54,151 bases of DNA. Origin: Capnocytophaga periodontitidis (lineage in GTDB: Bacteria > Bacteroidota > Bacteroidia > Flavobacteriales > Flavobacteriaceae). Below, piece by piece: positions 4,693 through 22,796 of the stretch (its first letter is position 1; each line of letters begins with the position of its first letter). A program made the translations under genes and the position numbers. Under the pieces are notes generated by a model that ran no database searches, had not been told where the DNA came from, and saw nothing but the letters and a program-made list of their open reading frames with translations. The DNA is taken from positions 1 through 54,151 of the forward strand of contig NZ_JAEFDB010000015.1 in assembly GCF_016126015.1 (NCBI RefSeq), read 5' to 3'.

Positions 4693-4743
4693 ATGAAATA
4701 CTTTATAAAAAAGAGCAAAGCGACTTAACACTTTGCTCTTTTT
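4693..4743. repeat. Direct repeat A (hairpin) next to the HicB-type gene
   Basis: About 51 bp, starting ATGAAATACTTTATAAAA and containing a terminator hairpin AAAAAGAGCAAAG / CTTTGCTCTTTTT (4708-4720 / 4731-4743). It is almost identical to repeat B at 5186-5237. It abuts the stop codon of the HicB-type gene and probably terminates it on the minus strand; it can also act on the plus strand. Confidence 0.75.
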
Positions 4744-5124
4744 CTATAATTGTATACTAAGCAATTCTGCACCGAGTTTATGCAACCCTTCTTGTATTTT
4801 TTGACGTTGAGCTGTACGAGGTTTTTTAAGCCCCACAGCGTATTGGTGTATCAATTTCTGATTGATACCTGTGAGTCGTTCAAAGGCAGGGTTGCTTATT
4901 ATCCCTTTAAAATATTGTAACAGACTTTCAGTGTCATATTTGTAGGTAAGTTGGTAATTGTTATAAGGAAAATTACCGAGTTCTTTTTGCAGAGCAATAG
5001 CCTCAAAGATACCGTTTTTAGCCTCTTGAACAGTTTCACCTCCTGCACTTATACCTTCTACATTTTCAGCATAAGCCCAATAAAAATCGTTACTACGTTC
5101 TATAATGATAGTAATGTTTTTCAT
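4744..5124 (-). CDS. HicB-type antitoxin-like protein with C-terminal HTH, no HicA partner
   Basis: 126 residues. The N-terminal 45 residues (IIIERSNDFYWAYAENVEG, then SAGGETVQEAKNGI) match the degenerate RNase-H-like HicB domain. The C-terminal half (about 70-115) looks like a helix-turn-helix: ISNPAFERLTGINQKLIHQYAVGLKKPRTAQ, a Cro/XRE-like pattern. Such proteins normally neutralise a HicA RNase and repress their own operon. No HicA-like ORF is found on either side, so this is a solitary antitoxin-like regulator or a remnant. It has a good promoter (5148-5155 with CAA at 5176) and is enclosed by two direct hairpin repeats. Confidence 0.75.
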   Translation of the reverse strand: MKNITIIIERSNDFYWAYAENVEGISAGGETVQEAKNGIFEAIALQKELGNFPYNNYQLTYKYDTESLLQYFKGIISNPAFERLTGINQKLIHQYAVGLKKPRTAQRQKIQEGLHKLGAELLSIQL

Positions 5125-5185: not shown

Positions 5186-5237
5186 ATGAAAATATTTTAT
5201 AAAAAAGAGCAAAGCGACTTAACGCTTTGCTCTTTTT
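5186..5237. repeat. Direct repeat B (hairpin) upstream of the HicB-type gene
   Basis: Near-identical to repeat A. It contains a perfect 15-bp stem, 5202-5216 with 5223-5237. It lies upstream of the HicB-type promoter, so the gene with its promoter is framed by two copies in the same orientation. It may also terminate leftward transcription from the gene at 5575-6456. Confidence 0.75.
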
Positions 5238-5574
5238 GTACCTTAAATAATGTAAGTTTGGTATAAGTAATTGTTTAAAAATCAGCGAAATATTCTAAGT
5301 CTTCCACGAATTTTACGAATTTTCACCTGACAGTGAATTATTTTAATGTGTGTTCGATATAAGAAATATCTATTTAATTATTTACTAATCAAATAGATAA
5401 ACAAGTTTGCTGTTTTTGGCAAGCTGGTGCTGCTGGATTTACAGGGATTATGATGCAAATATAATTTATTCTGTTATATCAATAATGTGAGCTACAAGCT
5501 ATTTAAGTAGGCACGAGCTACAAGAAATGCGCCAGTGGGGATATTTTTTTATAATTTTACTATTAGATGATTTA
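5238..5574. other. Gene-free stretch
   Basis: About 340 bp of AT-rich sequence between repeat B and the next gene. No ORF of useful length, tRNA-like fold or promoter was found. A short patch near 5400-5455 is less AT-rich than its surroundings and could be a decayed gene fragment, but nothing identifiable is left. Confidence 0.4.
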
Positions 5575-6456
5575 TTACTTCCAATCTATTACGAGGTCTG
5601 AAAGCTCAAGACTCGCAAACTCATCAGACCAACTATCAGCTGGTCCAAATCCTACTCTTGCTGCTGCAAATTTCAATCCTTTAACACTTGGAAGTATCTG
5701 TTTAAATACTATATAGGACTTTACAGGTACTTCTGTAGGAATTGTATTACAGCTAAAATCACCACTTTTTGCATTACCTACAGCAACTGCTTTAGAATAG
5801 TACTCATTACCTTCATAATCAAAAGCATTTATTCTGCTATTATCAAGACATACCTTTTGATGTACTAATTTATGAGAAATCAAGAGATTTACAGTTACGG
5901 TTTGAGCTTTTTTATCACCTACTACCGAAAGAATTTTTACCTCAATATTAGGTGAAAAGCTTTTTACCTTCCCATTGCCATCGCCTTGACCACTAGCTGC
6001 ATTTGCAAAGATTTTATCAGCAGTAGTTTGAAAGTCTTGGGCTTGTGATTTGATTTCACCATTTTGTAAAGCCTTATCAAAGAAAGCTCTTATCTCTTTC
6101 TTATCATCTAATTTTAGAACTACCAACTTATTATTGTCTATACCATTGGCAAAATATTTAATAGTAGCCTTATTACCTAAAGCTGAAAGTTGTTCTTTAG
6201 TAGCATTGTCCGAACTTTTCTTTTCAACAGAACCTCCTGTGAACATAGAAATATAGTCACCAGTGGTTATAATATCATTGATAAAGATATTTTCGTACTG
6301 AGTACCTTTTGCAGGTACTCCAAAAACTAATGTTTCACCTTTTTTATAGGTGTGGTTATCTACAGCAGTATACTCTTTTCTGGAGTTTTTAGCTTGAGCT
6401 ACTGCAAAACTGAGATTTAGTACTAAAAGTGCTACTAAAATAATGCTTCTTTTCAT
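5575..6456 (-). CDS. Secreted protein of unknown function
   Basis: 293 residues with a clear Sec signal peptide (MKRSIILVALLVLNLSFAVA, cleavage near AQA). The mature part is rich in beta-strand patterns and has two conserved-looking cysteines (VCLDNS and FSCNTIP). A glycine-rich linker (SGQGDGNGK) lies near residue 160. I do not recognise the family. The protein is probably periplasmic or outer-membrane associated. The most notable feature is its 5' leader of over 300 nt, with a promoter at 6795-6824, the 171-nt structured element (6547-6717) and a second hairpin (6484-6527). Confidence 0.7.
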   Translation of the reverse strand: MKRSIILVALLVLNLSFAVAQAKNSRKEYTAVDNHTYKKGETLVFGVPAKGTQYENIFINDIITTGDYISMFTGGSVEKKSSDNATKEQLSALGNKATIKYFANGIDNNKLVVLKLDDKKEIRAFFDKALQNGEIKSQAQDFQTTADKIFANAASGQGDGNGKVKSFSPNIEVKILSVVGDKKAQTVTVNLLISHKLVHQKVCLDNSRINAFDYEGNEYYSKAVAVGNAKSGDFSCNTIPTEVPVKSYIVFKQILPSVKGLKFAAARVGFGPADSWSDEFASLELSDLVIDWK

Positions 6457-6483
6457 TTGTTTGTTAATTTTTTGGATTACTAT

Positions 6484-6527
6484 ACCTACTCTGTTCAGGC
6501 TTTTCGGTTACCGCCTTTTAGGTAGGT
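6484..6527 (-). promoter_or_regulatory. Second leader hairpin of the gene at 5575-6456
   Basis: ACCTAC (6484-6489) pairs with GTAGGT (6522-6527), and AGGC (6497-6500) pairs with GCCT (6513-6516) inside it. The hairpin lies between the large structured element and the ATG, with no T run behind it, so it is not a terminator. It could affect translation or mRNA stability. Confidence 0.5.
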
Positions 6528-6546: not shown

Positions 6547-6717
6547 AAAAAAACGTGGAAACATTCCTTATTGCTCAATTTCTGAAGCCCGACCAAAGGC
6601 TATGTTACAAAGCAAAAGGAATGCCCACGTAACCGCAGGCATTTCCACTTTCACTTTCCTTGTAACATTGAAAAATTGGTCGTTTTCAGAAATTAGGAAA
6701 CTGTAAAGCGAAACGCT
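6547..6717 (-). ncRNA. Structured leader RNA element, copy 1
   Basis: On the minus strand this 171-nt stretch folds into one long rod. The closing stem is AGCGT/ACGTT. Next come TTTCC/GGAAT, a perfect 10-bp stem TTCAGAAATT/AATTTCTGAA (6685-6694/6577-6586), CGACCAA/TTGGTCG (6590-6596/6676-6682), ATGTTACAA/TTGTAACAT (6602-6610/6660-6668), and an apical stem GGAATGCC/GGCATTTCC (6618-6625/6638-6646). It ends in seven U residues. It shares sequence blocks and the same fold with 20239-20411. In both places it precedes, in sense orientation, a gene for an exported protein. It could be a cis-acting leader with a terminator-like end, or an independent small RNA. Confidence 0.7.
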
Positions 6718-6794: not shown

Positions 6795-6824
6795 CAAATG
6801 TATAAAAAAGTTTTATTTCTACAA
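6795..6824 (-). promoter_or_regulatory. Promoter of the structured element and the gene at 5575-6456
   Basis: On the minus strand, TTG (6822-6824) and TACATTTG (6795-6802) are exactly 19 nt apart. Transcription would start about 70 nt before the structured element and read through to the secreted-protein gene. Confidence 0.7.
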
Positions 6825-20238: not shown

Positions 20239-20411
20239 AGCGTTTCACTTTACAATTTCCTGTCATAGAAAACGACCATTTTTTAATGTTATGGGGAAAC
20301 TAAAAGTGGAAATGCCTGCACTATAGCGTGGGCATTTCTTTTTACTTTTGCAGTGTGCCTTTAGTCGGGCTTCTATGAGAAAGTAATAGGGAATGTGCTC
20401 ACGCTTTTTTT
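20239..20411 (+). ncRNA. Structured leader RNA element, copy 2
   Basis: A 173-nt rod with the same order of helices as 6547-6717. Closing stem: AGCGT (20239-20243)/ACGCT (20401-20405), CAC/GTG and TTTCC/GGGAA. Then an 8-bp perfect stem TCATAGAA/TTCTATGA (20263-20270/20371-20378), CGAC/GTCG (20273-20276/20364-20367), and apical GAAATGCC/GGCATTTC (20309-20316/20331-20338), with seven U residues at the end. The helix at 20263-20270 differs from copy 1 at four base pairs, each changed on both sides. It ends 36 nt before the ATG of the outer-membrane protein at 20448. No promoter with a clear -7 box was found directly upstream. Confidence 0.7.
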
Positions 20412-20447: not shown

Positions 20448-22796
20448 ATGAAAAGGAGTATTTTATTCTTAGTATTATGCTTTCCCTTATACATATTTTC
20501 ACAATATCGTGTTACAGGGATTTTAATTAGTAATAACCAAATAGTAGCTAATTGTACTGTTAAATTGCTCTCACAAGACAAGGTATTACAAACAACTGCT
20601 TCAGATGAAAAGGGTACTTTTTCTTTTGAAAACCTTTCAGCAGGGCAATACCAGCTAAATGTGGTTTCTATTTTCTATGAGCCTTTTCAGCAAGAGCTAA
20701 TGGTAGATAAGAATATCGCATTAGGCAATATTGTGATTACCGAGAAAGTAGAAAACCTTAAAGAAGTAACCGTTACTGGTCGGAAAAATCCTGTTATCCC
20801 TACTCAAACGGGCTCACTTATTGAAGTAACAGGCACACGGCTCGCCTATCGTTCTGCGGTGACCGATATTTTAGAGTATGCTCCCAGCATCTCCACTACT
20901 AATGGCTTGAAAATCTATGGCAATGACGATATTTTAATAATGCTCGACGGTAAGGAATTACACATCGATAAAGATAAAATAGCGTCTTTCTTAGATAAAA
21001 TACCCGTCAAGAGTATAAAAAGTATTGAAGTAGTTGATAAAATTGATGCTAGTATCGATAGCTCAAAAGTGGGTATCATAAAAATAACGACTATTGCAAA
21101 ATACGGCTGGGTAGACTCGTTAAGTCACAACTTTCTGTACAAACAAAAATTAGGCTATAACGATGATGTAAACCTGTTTTATTCTACTGATAAATATCGT
21201 CTTTTTACTAACCTATACCACGAACGACATCACACCTTTAGCAATACAGAGGAGCAATCTCTCTTGAAAAATAGTAATACACTTTATCAAAGTACTTCCG
21301 ATAGACAGTTAAAACGAAAAGCAAACGGGATAACATTAGGAGCAGATTACTATTTCAATAAAAAATCGACTCTTAGCTTTCTGTATATCTATAATTATGA
21401 TGCCGATGCTGATAATGAATACAACATATTAGCTAATGTGTATAATAACAATGTGCTCAACCATCATTTTACTACGAACAGAAAATGGGACGCCATATCT
21501 AATGACCACTCTTTCTCACTGAACTTCGACCATACTACTGACTCCTTAGGTTCAAATATCAAAATAGCCTTAGACTTGGTTAAGAAAAAGTATGAAAGTC
21601 CTCTTACTGAAAAAGATATTTATTACCGCATAGTAACTACCGAAGAAAATACTGAGCAAGATTCATACTCTTACAGCGATGTTTACGCCTTCAAAACTAC
21701 TTGGAGTAAGTTTTTTACCTCTAAATACCCTTCAGAAAAGCAGAACTTAGTGCTTGGATTGCGTTATTCATTGGTAGACAATCAAGATGAGTTTGCTTAT
21801 TTTGATATTTTGCCTACCCAGAAGTTAAAAAACGCTACTCTTTCTAATGATTTCTTCTTCAAAGAACACATTTTCGCCACTTTTGCCAATTACGCCTTCC
21901 CTCTTACTGAAAAATCAAAGTTCTCAGTGGGCTTACGTTCTGAATATAATTACAATACGTTTAACAATCACTTAGATAATTTCCATAACGACAACACACA
22001 ATGGTCACTCAATGCCCTCTATACTACCAAGCTCGGCAAAGAAACCTTCTTCTTTTCTGCTCGCCGATGGTTCAGCAGGGTGAATTACAGTCTGTTTAAC
22101 CCTACCTATATCAAAAGTTCTCCTACCGATGCCTATACAGGTAATAAAGATTTAAGTCCCATAGAAGGATATACGTTGCAATCGGGTTATAGGTGGAAAA
22201 AAGTAGATATGGCTGTGGCTTACCGTTATTTCGAAAAAAATGTGCTTAACATTCCTACCGCTATTGCTGGCGTAATAACTACTCGCCCCGAGAATGTAGG
22301 TTATAAAAACGATGTATATTTGTTCCTATCCCGTTTTACTAAGTTCACCGATTGGTGGGAGTGCAATGCAAAATTCACAGGGGGGTATTTTAACTTCAAG
22401 TATTTAGGGAATGCTTTCAACTCCTTATATGCCGAGTTTTACACCTCACAGCGCTTTTACCTCCCCAAAGATATCGAAGCTTCTCTTACTTACCAATATA
22501 TCTCAACCAATAAGAGTTTGTATACCAAAAACTATTACAATCACCAGCTCAACTTTAGCCTAATGATTCCTTTTTCAAGCTCATTTAGGTTAAAAGCCTT
22601 TGTAACTGATATATTGAAGACCTCTCGTTCTAAAAGTGAATATGATTTTAATGGTATTTATAACACATTATATTCAACCATTAACAGTCGTCAGTTTGGT
22701 ATAGGTATTAGCTATGATTTTGCCAAAGGTAAAGAAGTGAATGACAATATAAGAAACACAGGGGTAGAAGACGAGAAAAACAGACTATTGAAGTAA
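20448..22796 (+). CDS. Outer-membrane beta-barrel protein with regulatory-like and plug domains
   Basis: 782 residues. Signal peptide MKRSILFLVLCFPLYIFS, then a carboxypeptidase-regulatory-like domain (VTGILISNNQIVANCTVKLL to LGNIVI, about 20-95), a plug-like domain (VPTQ-type ... ILEYAPSISTTNGLKIYGNDDILIMLDGKEL, about 115-210), and a large barrel rich in alternating aromatic strands, as in the outer membrane beta-barrel family that resembles TonB receptors but lacks an obvious TonB box. A transport or surface role is likely; the substrate is unknown. The leader carries copy 2 of the structured RNA. Its first codons (MKRSI) also match those of the gene behind copy 1. Confidence 0.88.
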   Translation: MKRSILFLVLCFPLYIFSQYRVTGILISNNQIVANCTVKLLSQDKVLQTTASDEKGTFSFENLSAGQYQLNVVSIFYEPFQQELMVDKNIALGNIVITEKVENLKEVTVTGRKNPVIPTQTGSLIEVTGTRLAYRSAVTDILEYAPSISTTNGLKIYGNDDILIMLDGKELHIDKDKIASFLDKIPVKSIKSIEVVDKIDASIDSSKVGIIKITTIAKYGWVDSLSHNFLYKQKLGYNDDVNLFYSTDKYRLFTNLYHERHHTFSNTEEQSLLKNSNTLYQSTSDRQLKRKANGITLGADYYFNKKSTLSFLYIYNYDADADNEYNILANVYNNNVLNHHFTTNRKWDAISNDHSFSLNFDHTTDSLGSNIKIALDLVKKKYESPLTEKDIYYRIVTTEENTEQDSYSYSDVYAFKTTWSKFFTSKYPSEKQNLVLGLRYSLVDNQDEFAYFDILPTQKLKNATLSNDFFFKEHIFATFANYAFPLTEKSKFSVGLRSEYNYNTFNNHLDNFHNDNTQWSLNALYTTKLGKETFFFSARRWFSRVNYSLFNPTYIKSSPTDAYTGNKDLSPIEGYTLQSGYRWKKVDMAVAYRYFEKNVLNIPTAIAGVITTRPENVGYKNDVYLFLSRFTKFTDWWECNAKFTGGYFNFKYLGNAFNSLYAEFYTSQRFYLPKDIEASLTYQYISTNKSLYTKNYYNHQLNFSLMIPFSSSFRLKAFVTDILKTSRSKSEYDFNGIYNTLYSTINSRQFGIGISYDFAKGKEVNDNIRNTGVEDEKNRLLK

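Follow-up and report, generated by a model that had tools for sequence, protein, structure and literature searches.

Two similar stretches of DNA in Capnocytophaga periodontitidis, each followed by a gene on its own strand, raise the question of whether they encode a leader RNA that controls the next gene, a free-standing small RNA, or a mobile element. The window analyzed here is the 54,151-nucleotide stretch of contig NZ_JAEFDB010000015.1 (assembly GCF_016126015.1). In this window, a preliminary description had noted two stretches on opposite strands that share sequence blocks, that both end in seven U residues, and that contain a stem (P1 below) in which four pairs differ and are restored on both sides (TTTCTGAA/TTCAGAAA in copy 1, TCATAGAA/TTCTATGA in copy 2). 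These observations are accurate, coordinates and strands included. The features are listed below, with bit scores from two covariance models: R1, built from 11 copies with a hand-set fold, and R2, built from 39 copies (mostly Capnocytophaga).

6795..6802, minus strand: TACATTTG, a -7 box of the Bacteroidota type (TAnnTTTG) that begins 85 nt upstream of copy 1
6547..6717, minus strand: candidate leader RNA, copy 1, 171 nt including U7; 196.5 bits with R1, 178.1 with R2
6696..6717, minus strand: copy 1 segment a (AGCGTTTCGCTTTACAGTTTCC), partner b
6685..6693, minus strand: copy 1 P1 5' arm
6676..6682, minus strand: copy 1 P2 5' arm (CGACCAA), with covariation in distant copies
6660..6668, minus strand: copy 1 P3 5' arm
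6634..6659, minus strand: copy 1 segment b, partner a or c
6610..6629, minus strand: copy 1 segment c, partner b (predicted antiterminator) or d (predicted terminator)
6587..6600, minus strand: copy 1 hairpin H (GCC/GGC) with the P2 3' arm in its loop; more weakly supported
6577..6586, minus strand: copy 1 P1 3' arm
6554..6575, minus strand: copy 1 segment d, 3' arm of the predicted terminator hairpin c:d
6547..6553, minus strand: copy 1 U7 run
6483..6517, minus strand: DUF805b RNA (RF02914) between copy 1 and its gene; 48.8 bits, gathering cutoff 35.6
5575..6456, minus strand: gene downstream of copy 1, 293 aa, signal-like N-terminus by eye, no Pfam match
20239..20411, plus strand: candidate leader RNA, copy 2, 173 nt including U7; 139.7 bits with R2
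20405..20411, plus strand: copy 2 U7 run
20448..22796, plus strand: gene downstream of copy 2, a 782-aa outer-membrane beta-barrel protein (OMP_b-brl_3, CarboxypepD_reg; E = 1.2e-45)

In copy 2, P2 and P3 are imperfect, the U-run is separated from the ATG of the gene by 36 nt, and a TAnnTTTG box is absent from the 160 nt scanned upstream. As 177-nt stretches, both copies fold better than 200 of 200 dinucleotide shuffles (z = -6.05 for copy 1 and -4.59 for copy 2), and the computed full-length fold takes the antiterminator form in copy 1 and the terminator form in copy 2. The next-best R2 score in the window falls on the opposite strand of copy 2 (19.3 bits, E = 0.049).

Family and distribution of the element

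Whole-genome BLAST finds seven copies in this genome, the other six being 75-81% identical to copy 1, and R1 adds an eighth (C1:356360), for a total of at least eight. Given these copies and the score gap within the window, chance does not account for the two stretches. MAFFT alignment of 28 copies smeared the variable stems and RNAalifold yielded 21 pairs, so the fold was set by hand on 11 clean copies. Three loci were omitted from R2, namely L002 and L038, which also match on the opposite strand, and L021, a near-copy of L001.

At E ≤ 0.01, R1 finds matches in 16 of 20 genomes of the genus, including this one, and in 5 of 120 genomes of a first draw from the family, three of which represent other genera. 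The covariance-model search proposed in the preliminary description was carried out with R2, which finds relatives in 47 of 397 family genomes (36 of 237 genera) and in 49 of 395 phylum genomes (23 of 171 genera, including further orders and classes), the genome of the window being counted in both. Some of these matches lie outside the set of loci used below (G236, G637, G684, G723, G629:C5, G577:C14, and G758:C112). Close relatives of the element are found on contigs of C. leadbetteri (two) and C. bilenii (one), and copies are present on two plasmids, from Chryseobacterium shandongense and Rhizosphaericola mali. BLAST of plasmids with copy 1 gave no match, nor did two exact-pattern scans of viral contigs or a BLAST search that used one element against phage records. 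One genome, G758, has five matches; the four copies examined there (L136, L188, L189, and L190) measure 192-222 nt, longer than nearly all others from the phylum search, and L189 precedes a SusC-like gene.

When 35 copies (the two in the window and 33 others) were searched against Rfam 15 with cmscan, no family exceeded its gathering cutoff over the element. The best score over any copy was 26.1 bits, compared with gathering cutoffs of 55 for Phe_leader and 50 for Leu_leader. The 6S-like RNA considered in the preliminary description can be set aside, given that neither window copy matches 6S models at E values up to 10. This genome does carry another structured RNA that is a 6S-Flavo (RF01685) candidate, but it occupies a separate locus (C2:6694-6806; 84.8 bits, cutoff 85). 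The element is a real RNA family without an Rfam match.

No description of such an RNA was found in the literature searched, although partial earlier detection is possible, judging from the accessible portions of two reports (PMC9723704; PMC8040213) compared by description only. According to the accessible portion of the latter, the candidate RNA HMP2_1032 is palindromic, occurs exclusively in Bacteroidetes near TonB, and has a predicted terminator. Unlike the element, it is 106 bp long and predicted on both strands, but by description it may equal part of the family.

Rod fold and mutually exclusive helices

Read from 5' to 3', the first half of the element comprises segment a (AGCGTT... in many copies), the P1 arm, a GAAAA-like joint, the P2 arm, a U-rich stretch, and the P3 arm. 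The second half comprises segment b (..GCUCACG in many copies), a short loop, segment c (CGUGGGC..), the P3 partner arm, hairpin H around the P2 partner arm, the P1 partner arm, segment d (..CCACGC in many copies), and the U-run. Pairing within this rod was evaluated on 100 copies, out of 123 from other genera, and two-sided changes occur in 42 of 43 model pairs. Across the whole model fold, 1068 cells carry such changes, compared with 310 in shuffled and 183-220 in slid controls. The copies are mutually related, so pair counts do not equal independent events, and the counts are biased toward the rod because the copies were found with a rod model. The 39 mostly Capnocytophaga copies show two-sided changes in 37 of 43 pairs.

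P1, P2, P3, and b:c all retain pairing in the 100 copies despite changes on both sides. The stems are hypervariable, with the sequences of P1-P3 free to change so long as they remain paired. P2 is nearly invariant in close copies, whereas distant ones, some from the same genus, carry CUGGUA/UACCAG, GUCCAA/UUGGAC, CGCCAA/UUGGCG, and other combinations. Hairpin H forms at least four pairs in 94% of cases with its own partner and in 72% with foreign partners. Covariation far above both the shuffled and the slid controls means that selection on RNA structure, as first proposed from the two window copies, is well supported.

The preliminary description had also used G·U pairs to argue that the transcribed strand is the one that codes for the downstream gene. 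In the model helices, G·U combinations outnumber A·C by 162 to 19 in the 39 mostly Capnocytophaga sequences and, with a weaker excess, by 342 to 152 in the 100 copies from other genera, and this strand is therefore favored. The specific stem on which that argument relied, the closing stem a:d, is a less secure basis. In the model-fitted alignment, 7 of its 7 pairs have two-sided changes and 76.5% of cells are paired, but a narrower duplex test found the own partner to be better in just 41-60% of copies, which is no clear gain.

Overlooked in that description, along with the wide distribution, were two alternative helices, a:b and c:d, which the search model does not contain. The helices a:b, b:c, and c:d are mutually exclusive, in that b pairs with either a or c and c pairs with either b or d. 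Duplex energies for own versus foreign partners average -12.9 versus -8.9 kcal/mol for a:b, -16.7 versus -12.4 for c:d, and -16.7 versus -13.5 for b:c, and the own partner is better in 90%, 91%, and 80% of the 100 copies, respectively. The same duplex energies show no own-partner gain for a:d, a:c, or b:d, a result that serves as a check on relatedness. Among 11 clean copies of the Capnocytophaga type, the fold with two hairpins is 92.7% paired with covariation not above shuffles, because these segments hardly vary within the genus; its support comes from distant copies.

Folding of successively longer prefixes yields a:b in 100 of 100 copies, followed by b:c with P1 in 100 of 100, and a:b drops to 50% once a is shuffled. 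At full length, 76 of the 100 copies fold with b:c and 24 with c:d. The b:c state is computed to be favored over the c:d state by 5.8 ± 5.1 kcal/mol, a gap that widens to 16.0 when d is shuffled and to 12.8 when a is shuffled. This calculation replaced a first comparison based on pair-forbidding constraints, which had placed the c:d state lower by 8.9 (7.4 in the control) and was judged faulty because the totals collapsed. On this computational evidence, c:d with the U-run probably acts as a terminator, and b:c clamped by P1-P3 as the antiterminator. Two exclusive helices of these kinds, with a U-run after the predicted terminator in most copies, are what is expected of an attenuator.

Gene context and competing explanations

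In 155 of 166 loci the first gene downstream runs in the same direction as the element, and in the other 11 it lies on the opposite strand; upstream genes are mixed (76 on the same strand, 90 opposite). These counts derive from 168 loci, two of which lack a downstream call, and from a simple gene caller of our own with a minimum of 60 codons, which misses, for example, a short co-directional gene after L002. A TAnnTTTG box occurs within 160 nt upstream of 118 of 165 elements, compared with 21.5 expected from single-base shuffles. Boxes are present in 28 of 43 Capnocytophaga copies and in 90 of 122 others, with median start positions 71 nt and 33 nt upstream, respectively. The element is therefore typically part of a 5' leader, with a promoter box ahead of it and a co-directional gene after it; copy 2 is an exception in lacking the box. 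A run of at least five U residues is present in 134 of 166 copies overall, with 42 of 43 in Capnocytophaga and 92 of 123 elsewhere. Ribosome-mediated attenuation through a leader peptide was set aside, since there is no conserved leader peptide and an ATG-started candidate of five or more codons ending inside the element exists in only 17 of 166 copies.

The 151 downstream proteins fall into 88 clusters. Pfam scans covered 137 of 150 distinct downstream proteins, some of them cut at locus ends. Among the 100 from other genera, a TonB plug is found in 30, sigma-70 region 2 in 8, and a response-regulator domain in 5. The 37 from Capnocytophaga include BNR repeats (5), lipocalin-like domains (4), BspA-type LRRs (3), collagen repeats (3), and one each of an EcoRI-type methylase, an IIGP GTPase, and DUF805. 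Across the Bacteroidota, relatives of the element stand ahead of many unrelated genes, often ones that encode surface proteins. By a crude rule, hydrophobic N-termini are present in 23 of 41 downstream versus 2 of 33 upstream genes within the genus, and in 59 of 110 versus 16 of 115 in other genera.

Of the options raised for the two window copies, a cis-regulatory leader with conditional termination offers the best fit to gene orientation, the upstream box, and exclusive helices that include a predicted terminator. Computation supports the family, the rod fold, the exclusive helices, the gene orientation, the box position in most copies, and the lack of a conserved leader peptide; that termination is conditional is what we infer from them. 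The element is probably a cis-acting attenuation leader RNA that controls read-through into the next gene by means of a signal-responsive terminator switch. On the best reading, this leader is distributed across the phylum ahead of genes for exported proteins and regulators, and is absent from Rfam. Some observations fit less well, namely the 47 of 165 copies that lack a box, the 31 of 123 copies from other genera with fewer than five U residues, the 11 loci without a co-directional gene, and the TonB-receptor loci, where the ATG mostly lies 200-580 nt downstream of the element, which is far for a simple attenuator.

Transcription would begin slightly upstream of the element. As the RNA emerges, a:b would form first, and c would then oust a from b, if the folding order in the cell follows the computed one. 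P1, P2, and P3 would join the two loops into a rod, with b:c as the antiterminator. Once transcribed, d could draw c off b to create the c:d hairpin beside the U-run, the putative terminator, while a pairs again with b. With computed end states about 6 kcal/mol apart on average in favor of the antiterminator, any factor that favors a:b or opens the P1-P3 clamp, whether a protein, a metabolite, another RNA, or polymerase speed, might determine whether transcription yields a short RNA or the complete mRNA.

There are several known systems that resemble this arrangement in part. In trp, Phe, and Leu leader attenuators, segments pair 1:2, 2:3, or 3:4. The element likewise has exclusive helices of this order, the last followed by U residues and a co-directional gene. 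It differs from those leaders in that 149 of 166 copies contain no ATG-started candidate for a leader peptide, that two long loops are joined by three covarying helices, and that the downstream genes are not amino-acid operons; RF01859 and RF00512 match it only below threshold (16.4-26.1 bits versus gathering cutoffs of 50-55). We regard this layout as that of a transcription attenuator lacking a leader peptide. Some riboswitches also carry terminator expression platforms, and the element resembles them by layout in combining a structured domain, possibly with a loop pseudoknot, with a terminator and antiterminator. It differs from them in its hypervariable stems and in the diversity of downstream proteins, and no ligand is known.

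Three other explanations must be weighed against attenuation. First, the element could be a discrete trans-acting sRNA of about 170 nt that has a promoter and terminator of its own, with leaky read-through feeding the neighboring downstream gene. The box near the 5' end of most copies, the 3' U-run, the stable rod, and the 11 loci without a co-directional gene would all suit such an RNA. Paralogous sRNA families do exist in Bacteroides, where the accessible portion of one report describes the FopS RNAs (PMC11697453) as multicopy and tied to SusC-like transporter control. The FopS RNAs differ from the element in being ~65-70 nt long and in binding target mRNAs. The strong bias toward co-directional genes argues against an sRNA, as do the scarcity of downstream genes with a TAnnTTTG box of their own between element and ATG (7 of 143), the diversity of downstream proteins, and the free variation of P1-P3 under maintained pairing. 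Overall, an sRNA appears unlikely.

Second, the rod might act after transcription by protecting, hiding, or exposing the mRNA and thereby affect stability, processing, or translation, with the U-run being incidental. The short U-runs in other genera and the long gap before the ATG in most TonB-receptor loci point in this direction. However, c:d fits its own partner directly beside the U-run, shuffling d unbalances the two states, and the U-run is nearly universal in Capnocytophaga, and so we consider this explanation quite doubtful.

Third, the element might be a mobile, quasi-palindromic DNA of the MITE or REP type that spreads ahead of genes, as the preliminary description allowed. It is a multicopy imperfect palindrome whose opposite strand is also scored by the model in some loci, and two plasmids carry copies. 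A MITE should show no preference for strand or gene orientation, whereas the element is oriented with the downstream gene in most loci and shows compensatory pairing and a G·U excess on one strand. Furthermore, copies within this genome are only 75-81% identical, and the same neighboring gene, metE-like by eye, adjoins the element in four species. Mobility of this kind is therefore highly improbable as an explanation.

If attenuation is indeed its role, a leader ahead of TonB receptors, sigma-70 factors, response regulators, and export-like proteins would add a regulatory layer to surface remodeling in Bacteroidota. The switch is testable, with predictable compensatory mutants, and it raises the question of what kind of signal would be appropriate for downstream proteins as varied as these 88 clusters. 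A more ambitious proposal, which we offer tentatively and rate at somewhat under even odds, is that the element represents a phylum-wide class of signal-sensing RNAs, responsive to proteins or metabolites, that tunes surface receptors, lipoproteins, sigma factors, and horizontally acquired genes. Such RNAs would switch by exchange among four strands, with loop-loop helices, and perhaps a pseudoknot, as the lock, a design that matches no Rfam family. In the accessible portion of a flavobacterial transcriptome study, 64 structured 5' regions are reported, and the median 5' UTR of Flavobacterium psychrophilum is given as 24 nt (PMC9723704); leaders of the size of the element stand out against this median.

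Observations at neighboring loci

The DUF805b RNA (RF02914) is a separate 35-nt motif. Of 45 Capnocytophaga loci, 16 have its core (GAGTAGG) in the 130 nt that follow the leader RNA; none of 123 loci from other genera does. Two further DUF805b matches, at G000:C1:317138 (over the cutoff) and C1:52612 (below it), are not accompanied by the element. At the metE-like locus L145-L148, L149/L150, and L151-L154, the promoter, leader RNA, and DUF805b are conserved but are followed by different genes. Sequence identity between G000 and three relatives breaks off at 2818-2820, right after DUF805b. Since the genes found there in the three relatives resemble one another, a single replacement in G000 would explain this locus. 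A suspected site-specific exchange of cassettes at DUF805b became less likely, as the repeats behind the cargo resemble ordinary terminators.

Short, paralogous-looking proteins of 74-116 aa lie downstream at L003, L007, L040, L043, L044, and L045. Upstream of L007, L040, and L041 there is a shared divergent gene that appears by eye to encode an HTH/WYL protein, together with a SLOG-looking gene. Outside the genus, the upstream gene is divergent in 77 of 121 loci, and a small divergent gene, HTH-looking by eye, lies just upstream of L110, L112, L117, L143, and similar TonB-receptor loci. Within the window, two terminator-like repeats of 51 nt (4696-4746 and 5190-5240), 94% identical to each other, flank a gene at 4744-5124 that appears HicB-like by eye.
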